This document shows, piece by piece, positions 83 through 35,035 of a stretch of DNA of 64,000 nucleotides. How positions within the stretch are numbered: position 1 is the first letter of the stretch; each line of letters starts with the position of its first letter. Below the pieces are notes generated by a model, which was not told the DNA's origin, ran no database searches, and worked only from the letters and a program-made list of their open reading frames with translations. The DNA is taken from contig JAAZJD010000037.1 in NCBI GenBank assembly GCA_012800525.1, positions 1-64,000 of the forward strand. Reading direction: 5' to 3'. Both the position numbers and the translations under genes were made by a program. Source of the stretch: Clostridiales bacterium (lineage in GTDB: Bacteria; Bacillota; Clostridia; Christensenellales; DTU072).

Positions 83-652
83 TTATTTTTTGTTCGCTTT
101 TTCAACTTTAGCTACAGCTTCTGTTTCAGTTTTTTTCACGGTAGGTTTTGTTTCAGTTGTTTTTTTAACTGTATCTTTGGGTTCAGCCTTTTTTACCGTA
201 GTTTTAACTGCAGCTTTTTCTTCAGGCACATTTTTTGTTGTATCTTTGGGCTCAGCTTTTTTTACAGTAGTTTTTACTGTAGTCTTTTCTTCAGGCGTAT
301 TTTTTGCTGTAGTTTTTTTGACAACATTTGCTTTTGCAACAGGTTTTGCTACTTCTTTTTCTGCAACTTTAGCCTCAGGTTTTGTATCTTTAGCTACGAC
401 TTTTGAGGTTTTTGCTTTTTTAGAGCTTTTTGACTTTGAAGTTGAAGTAGGCTCAATAGAGATACCAATTTCTCTTTGCCTCAAAACAGTCATTGCTCTT
501 GCAATATCTTTTTTGCACTCACGTATTCTTAAAGGATTGGGTAATTGAGCAACTGCTTGTTTGAAGCGCAACTCAAACAATTCCTTTTTTAGTTCATTAA
601 CTGTATTATTCAATTCATCATTTGTCATTTCGAAAAATCTTTCTGGTTTCAT
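83..652 (-). CDS. rpmC: 50S ribosomal protein L29 with long K/T/E/A-rich C-terminal extension
   Basis: N-terminal ~65 aa (MTNDELNNTVNELKKELFELRFKQAVAQLPNPLRIRECKKDIARAMTVLRQRE) is typical L29; operon position fits. About 120 aa of low-complexity tail follows. Confidence 0.93.
   Translation of the reverse strand: MKPERFFEMTNDELNNTVNELKKELFELRFKQAVAQLPNPLRIRECKKDIARAMTVLRQREIGISIEPTSTSKSKSSKKAKTSKVVAKDTKPEAKVAEKEVAKPVAKANVVKKTTAKNTPEEKTTVKTTVKKAEPKDTTKNVPEEKAAVKTTVKKAEPKDTVKKTTETKPTVKKTETEAVAKVEKANKK
161..300 (-). repeat. 69-bp tandem repeat inside the rpmC extension
   Basis: 'gtatctttggg.tcagc' recurs at 171 and 240 (69 bp = 23 aa). Protein units PEEKTTVKTTVKKAEPKDTTKNV / PEEKAAVKTTVKKAEPKDTVKKT. 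Confidence 0.8.
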
Positions 653-32959: not shown

Positions 32960-33817
32960 TTAAACACCTTTATCAAAATTTGAATAATACATTCGATAAA
33001 CCTCTTTTGTGTAAGAGCCATCACCCTCTGTAATAATCAAAGGTTTTAAAATTCTAATACCTGATTTGCCGTTTTTCTTGCCCTCAACAACTACAGTGTT
33101 TACTGCTTTGTTAATAGATGGCTGAATAGGCAAAATTTTTTTAGGTTCTAACAAATATTTTCTCATCGAAACCATAAGATCAGTTAACCTTTCTGATTTT
33201 ACAATACAATAGAATCTGCCACCATATTTTAACAGTTTAGATGCCTCATGAACTATTTCATCTAATGTTATTAGCATTTCTGTTTTGCAATTCATAGATT
33301 CACTTAGCATTTCATTTTCATCAAAAAGCTTCTCTAATTCTATTGGCTCAAGATACTTTTTAAGATCTACTTGTTCTTCTATATTTTTTCTTATTTTTTT
33401 AGTTGTTTCATTTTTATTTACTGGCATATATGGAGGGTTTGAAACAACAACATCAATAGATTCGTGAGCAAGATATTTATGAGTAACTCTAATATCTAAA
33501 TTTAATATTTCAATATTGTCTTCTAACCCATTATATATGACACTTCTTTTTGCCATATCATATAATCTTGGTTGAATTTCTATTCCATAAATCTTTTTTG
33601 CTTTTGTTTTTGCAAACATCAGTAAAGGTATAACTCCAGATCCTGTTCCTAAATCTACTACCGTTTCTTTGTTATTTGCTTTTGCTATATTTGCTAAAAT
33701 TACAGCATCAGTAGTAAATGTATATCCTTTCTTGTTTTGGATAATATATAAGTCATCACACTCTAAATTAAAAATTTCTTCATCTTTTAAAATCAACTTT
33801 TTAAGATCTTTTTTCAT
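32960..33817 (-). CDS. tRNA1(Val) (adenine37-N6)-methyltransferase-like
   Basis: VVDLGTGSGVIPLLMFAKTKAKKIYGIEIQ; VVSNPPYMP (NPPY). Confidence 0.9.
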   Translation of the reverse strand: MKKDLKKLILKDEEIFNLECDDLYIIQNKKGYTFTTDAVILANIAKANNKETVVDLGTGSGVIPLLMFAKTKAKKIYGIEIQPRLYDMAKRSVIYNGLEDNIEILNLDIRVTHKYLAHESIDVVVSNPPYMPVNKNETTKKIRKNIEEQVDLKKYLEPIELEKLFDENEMLSESMNCKTEMLITLDEIVHEASKLLKYGGRFYCIVKSERLTDLMVSMRKYLLEPKKILPIQPSINKAVNTVVVEGKKNGKSGIRILKPLIITEGDGSYTKEVYRMYYSNFDKGV

Positions 33818-33846
33818 ACTGGCTTATTTCAATAAATATCCTTATT

Positions 33847-33997
33847 ACTTTACCATAAACACACAGGCTATAGTCTTCCCAATTTTATCGCCTGCAAGAA
33901 CAAGATTACTTTATCGTGAACACGCAGCTATAAGATATGACTAAATATTTTAGTTTAAGCATTTTTAATGCTTTATCGTGAACATACAGGCTCATAG
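33847..33997. repeat. Three degenerate 26-27 bp repeats with 61-62 bp period
   Basis: 33848 CTTTACCATAAACACACAGGCTATAG; 33909 CTTTATCGTGAACACGCAGCTATAAG; 33971 CTTTATCGTGAACATACAGGCTCATAG; unrelated-looking 34-36 bp between them. Confidence 0.7.
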
Positions 33998-34105
33998 ATT
34001 ATATATTAACATAAATATTACTTCAAACTCTATAATTACTAGCATTTAAATATGTGTTATAGTATAATTTATAATATATTTATAGATATTTTATGGAGGT
34101 AATTT

Positions 34106-35035
34106 ATGCCATTAGTAACAAGTACAGAAATGTTTAAGAAAGCTTACCAAGGTGGTTATGCAATAGGAGCATTCAATGTAAACAACATGGAAACCATTCA
34201 AGGAATTGTTGAAGCTGCTAAAGAAGAAAAGTCACCTGTAATATTGCAAGTATCAGCTGGAGCTAGAAAATATGCAAATCCAGTTTACCTAAAGAAGCTT
34301 GTAGAAGCCGCTGTTGAGACAACTGATCTACCGATAGTTCTTCATCTAGACCATGGTGATTCTTTTGAAATTTGCAAAGATTGCATTGATATGGGATTTA
34401 CTTCAGTAATGATTGACGCCTCGAGCCATAGCTTAGAAGAAAACATTAAAATAACAAAAAATGTTGTTGATTACGCACATGATAGAGGAGTTGTAGTAGA
34501 AGCTGAACTAGGAAGACTCGCTGGCATAGAAGACGATGTAAAAGTTCATGCCGATGATGCCCAATATACTGATCCTGCTGAAGTATATGAATTTGTTTCA
34601 AGAACAAACGTAGATAGCTTAGCAATTGCAATTGGAACAAGTCACGGTGCATTCAAATTTAAAGGAGAAGCAAAGCTTCGTTTTGATATTTTAGAAAAAA
34701 TTGGAAAACTTTTACCAAACTTCCCTATTGTTTTACACGGAGCAAGTTCAGTGCCACAAAACTTGGTTGAAGTTATCAATAAATATGGTGGCAATATGCC
34801 AGGAGCTAAAGGTGTCCCAGAAGACATGTTGAGAAAAGCAGCTTCAATGGCTGTTTGCAAAATTAATATCGATTCTGATATACGTATGGCTATCACTGCA
34901 ACTATTAGAAAGTATTTCAGTGAAAATCCTTCACACTTTGACCCAAGACAATATTTGGGACCAGCAAGACTCGCTGTAAAAGAAATTGTTGCACATAAAA
35001 TTAGAAATGTTTTAGGTTCATCAAATCAAATTTAG
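34106..35035 (+). CDS. fba: Class II fructose-bisphosphate aldolase
   Basis: GAFNVNNMETIQGIVEAA; LHLDHGDSFE; AIGTSHGAFKF; VLHGASSVP. Confidence 0.96.
   Translation: MPLVTSTEMFKKAYQGGYAIGAFNVNNMETIQGIVEAAKEEKSPVILQVSAGARKYANPVYLKKLVEAAVETTDLPIVLHLDHGDSFEICKDCIDMGFTSVMIDASSHSLEENIKITKNVVDYAHDRGVVVEAELGRLAGIEDDVKVHADDAQYTDPAEVYEFVSRTNVDSLAIAIGTSHGAFKFKGEAKLRFDILEKIGKLLPNFPIVLHGASSVPQNLVEVINKYGGNMPGAKGVPEDMLRKAASMAVCKINIDSDIRMAITATIRKYFSENPSHFDPRQYLGPARLAVKEIVAHKIRNVLGSSNQI

Follow-up and report, generated by a model that had tools for sequence, protein, structure and literature searches.

A three-unit direct repeat with near-regular spacing between the divergent trmN6 and fba genes of an uncultured Clostridiales bacterium, a possible cis-regulatory element

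The window (the whole 64,000-nucleotide stretch of DNA that was analysed) contains a divergent gene pair, comprising a gene for a trmN6-like methyltransferase on the minus strand (32960-33817; Pfam PF05175 MTS, E 8.4e-12) and, on the plus strand, fba, encoding a class II fructose-bisphosphate aldolase (34106-35035; Pfam PF01116, E 2.5e-105). This arrangement is kept in the family, with trmN6 located upstream of fba at 25 of 29 family loci, a few contigs ending nearby. The gap between the two genes measures 288 bp, compared with a median of 118 bp (range 80-257) in 25 same-family relatives. By eye, a likely fba core promoter, TAGCAT-N17-TATAAT, was placed at 34040-34068 on the plus strand, and at the corresponding place same-family relatives carry TAGACT/TAGATT-N17-TATAAT. 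Upstream of this predicted promoter, in DNA that has no counterpart in most relatives, lies an array of three repeat units.

The trmN6 start in the window (33817-33857) was compared with the family loci (L013-L041). In 21 of 25 family relatives a TATAAT-like -10 element lies 12-15 nt ahead of the trmN6 start, nearly always exactly 12 nt before the ATG, and it is often accompanied by a TTGACA/TTGTTA-like -35. Since the -10 is placed 12 nt before the ATG, a leaderless trmN6 mRNA is predicted across the family. In the genome studied here there is no TATAAT-like -10 within 40 bp of the trmN6 start, and on this comparison the genome appears to have lost the proximal element that most relatives keep. 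A possible sigma-70-type promoter directed toward trmN6, TTGAAG-N17-TATAAT (10/12), is present on the minus strand at 33998-34026, just beyond the third repeat unit, and as a scan match it occurs at chance level (2 sites found, 4.1 expected in shuffles).

The three units, all on the plus strand, are grouped by a repeat finder as one three-copy family: unit 1, CTTTACCATAAACACACAGGCTATAG (33848-33873; E 2.5e-6 in a profile search of its own genome), unit 2, CTTTATCGTGAACACGCAGCTATAAG (33909-33934; E 1.2e-5), and unit 3, CTTTATCGTGAACATACAGGCTCATAG (33971-33997; E 3.6e-6). On re-reading, the sequences, the starts at 33848, 33909 and 33971 and the spacing of 61 and 62 bp were exactly those given in a preliminary description of this DNA, which had called the repeats degenerate and the intervals unlike and 34-36 bp long. 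The units are 26-27 bp long with pairwise identity of 78-81%, the identities between their 19-mer cores are 15/19, 15/19 and 17/19 for the three pairs, so that no two units are within one mismatch of each other, and they align as ATTACTTTATCGTGAACACACAGGCTATAG. Differences in the 23-bp aligned blocks are nearly all transitions (4:0, 5:1 and 3:1 for the three pairs). Interval 1 (33874-33908, 35 bp) takes part, together with the end of unit 1, in a weak CAGGC/GCCTG hairpin, and interval 2 (33935-33970, 36 bp) is AT-rich with two small A+T-rich inverted repeats; the two are identical at 13 of 35 positions, which is at or below shuffle level. No dyad symmetry is conserved across all three copies. 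Unit 2 has a 10-bp palindrome, CGTGAACACG, that units 1 and 3 have not kept, and the shared site is therefore asymmetric. Comparisons of the units with fba promoters gave best p values of 0.002 and 0.005 out of about 150, which are weak and not significant after that number, and the genome's own fba promoter region is without similarity to the units.

To evaluate whether the repeat exceeds chance, each triple of 20-mers at near-equal spacing was scored by adding up its pairwise identities. When the 288-bp gap was shuffled 20,000 times by dinucleotide, the observed score of 48 was never reached, the maximum being 45, and a Gumbel fit to the same shuffles gave about 1e-4 for this single gap; the empirical bound is the firmer of these figures, and correcting for the whole genome would make the claim somewhat weaker. 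Scanning the entire window placed the array at the top of all non-coding triples, no other exceeding 40, and its nearest rival, with a score of 46, was a coding repeat at 106-147 in the tail of rpmC. That gene, in a ribosomal operon (83-652, minus strand), encodes an L29-like ribosomal protein with a long, repetitive Lys/Thr/Glu-rich C-terminal tail specified by a 69-bp repeat. A scan of the window for further, weaker units found none above 12 bits, compared with 26-30 bits for the three units. Chance similarity in AT-rich sequence could draw on there being only three copies, and on a best single pair that is unremarkable by itself, its level being attained by 19 of 3,000 shuffles, but the regular triple makes this explanation highly improbable, and the three-unit repeat is confirmed as real.

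The repeat is also unique in the data searched. As the preliminary description had proposed, the three-unit profile was run against the whole genome, and at E<=10 it matched only the three units. Pattern searches of the same genome allowing 3 mismatches gave 7 extra matches, compared with 6 for a reversed-pattern control. In 40 family genomes the profile did not detect the array, the remaining matches being single with E values of 0.1 or worse. Across 297 genomes of the order, the pattern with 1 mismatch yielded 4 single matches and no array, and a DNA search with the whole array returned AT-rich matches of 19-31 bp (E 3e-4 to 0.01), none of which spanned it. Viral contigs contained no array, only 12 single matches. 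Within the set of genomes searched, the array is confined to this species, the relatives compared representing other genera of the family. It had been suggested beforehand that a lack of other copies and of conservation in close relatives would point to random AT-rich similarity; the first part is what we found, with no other copies and none in the family's other genera, but the conclusion of random similarity was not borne out, since the triple beats all 20,000 shuffles.

Because the units are 78-81% identical and the intervals match at only 13 of 35 positions, either selection preserved the units or they originated, or were copied, as separate modules. If the intervals had diverged at the unit rate, the probability of seeing 12-14 or fewer matches in 35 would be about 1e-8 to 6e-7, and a plain 61-bp neutral tandem duplication, after which the intervals should resemble each other as closely as the units do, does not explain the array. 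The main rival to the binding-site interpretation developed below is nevertheless a functionless relic, in which a short module was copied locally, by replication slippage or by several rounds of short duplication followed by indels, and is now decaying with no current role. Such an origin is quite conceivable: in the data searched the array occurs in this genome alone, the near absence of differences other than transitions fits copies related by descent under ordinary mutation, and the gap is larger than in most relatives. It would, however, need copying of the units alone or constraint upon them, and we hold it as a serious, if tentative, alternative.

The dimensions of the array had raised the possibility of a decayed, cas-less CRISPR mini-array, and with three repeats of about 26 bp and unlike intervals of 35-36 bp they do fall within the CRISPR range. 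CRISPRCasdb, however, applies the criterion that successive repeats differ by at most one mismatch (PMC7145573), and here even the most similar pair of units has 2 mismatches in the 19-position core, with 4 in each of the other two pairs, so the near identity expected of a CRISPR array is lacking. The preliminary description had noted no cas genes in the window, and this extends, for Cas1 and Cas9, to the 95%-complete genome, where Cas1 had no match and Cas9 none above cut-off. The sole match to Cas9 below cut-off was a 345-aa HNH-type protein (contig C53, L164:847-1884), the match lying between its C-terminal part and the HNH region of the model; the protein is probably an ordinary HNH endonuclease, and its convergent neighbour looks by eye like a Fic-domain protein. 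When the intervals were compared with phage and plasmid sequences, as had been proposed, the best matches (E 0.5 for phage, 0.1 for plasmid) were AT-rich stretches that are not credible protospacers. No sister array with a similar repeat was detected in the genome by profile at E<=10, and the viral contigs, with their single matches only, provide no array either. A CRISPR origin is thus left unsupported, and we regard it as very unlikely.

An RNA element was also considered, in which either transcription of trmN6 would now start beyond unit 3, its leaderless promoter having been lost, or the array would encode a small RNA. In the first version, a leader of roughly 170 nt would carry three tandem RNA motifs, and the missing proximal -10, the TTGAAG-N17-TATAAT sequence at 34026-33998 and differences confined largely to transitions, which would also suit G-U-tolerant pairing, are in keeping with it. 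Against this, the candidate promoter occurs at chance frequency, both strands of the gap fold no better than their shuffled versions (z -0.98 and -0.08), sub-segments of the gap reach a z of about -2 at best, and no match at the Rfam gathering level was found in the window. The folding results favour a DNA element over an RNA element, and the RNA interpretation appears unlikely. A coding interpretation, with the units read as LYREH-like peptides, was rejected, since spacings of 61 and 62 bp put successive units in different frames and no ORF is common to them.

We favour, at a probability of roughly 45%, the interpretation that the array is a lineage-specific cis-regulatory element of the trmN6/fba control region, consisting of three direct, roughly helically phased, predicted protein-binding sites. 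The proposed site would be asymmetric, about 19-26 bp long, with the core CTTTAYCRTRAACAYRCAG present in three copies in direct orientation, whose centres lie about 95, 157 and 218 bp ahead of the transcription start predicted for fba. A spacing of 61-62 bp would correspond to about six helical turns and bring the sites to roughly one side of the helix, and a DNA-binding protein would bind there cooperatively, modulating one or both of the two genes. The phasing is approximate, because 61 and 62 bp equal 5.8-5.9 turns at 10.5 bp per turn. What argues for an operator is that the units are sharp and the intervals between them unrelated, that the spacing is close to a regular six turns, and that the array lies between divergent promoters; support also comes from the downstream fba promoter, which matches the relatives' position, and from the enlarged gap. 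The suggestion in the preliminary description of a phased intergenic repeat in the divergent control region is consistent with this anatomy, its role being putative. Since the proximal trmN6 -10 appears to be lost here, trmN6 is as plausible a target as fba. Counting against an operator, the site lacks a dyad symmetry common to its copies and was seen neither at other genes of this genome nor in the other genera, and three copies in one genome may also reflect modular duplication without function. By eye, the units gave no convincing match to the DnaA box or to LexA, Rex, sigma-B or sigma-D consensus sequences. A bolder version of the operator interpretation, in which a genus-restricted, new type of transcription-factor operator, made up of three direct sites about six turns apart, took over trmN6/fba control upon loss of the ancestral leaderless trmN6 promoter, seems to us improbable.

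Compared with known systems, the array resembles CRISPR arrays as defined for CRISPRCasFinder and CRISPRDetect (PMC7145573, PMC4869251) in its lengths, its three direct repeats and its dissimilar intervals, but those arrays have near-identical repeats, and here Cas1, Cas9, protospacers and a related array are missing as well. The cas-less CRISPR RNA RliB of Listeria, which PNPase processes, is likewise a small intergenic repeat array without cas genes; it differs in having identical repeats (five in strain EGD-e), a single locus kept across Listeria and phage-matching spacers, all of which are missing here (PMC3886909). A CRISPR-sized direct repeat between housekeeping genes can therefore be real and yet non-CRISPR, which calls for caution. 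If the array is regulatory, it would represent a recent rewiring of glycolytic gene control beside an element that has disappeared from a divergent promoter region which is strongly conserved in other respects. Multi-site operators form a general class with direct, helically phased binding sites. The array differs from them in that it occurs at one locus only and no known regulator motif is matched; it shares with them direct copies of one site, separated by near-integral numbers of helical turns, upstream of a promoter.
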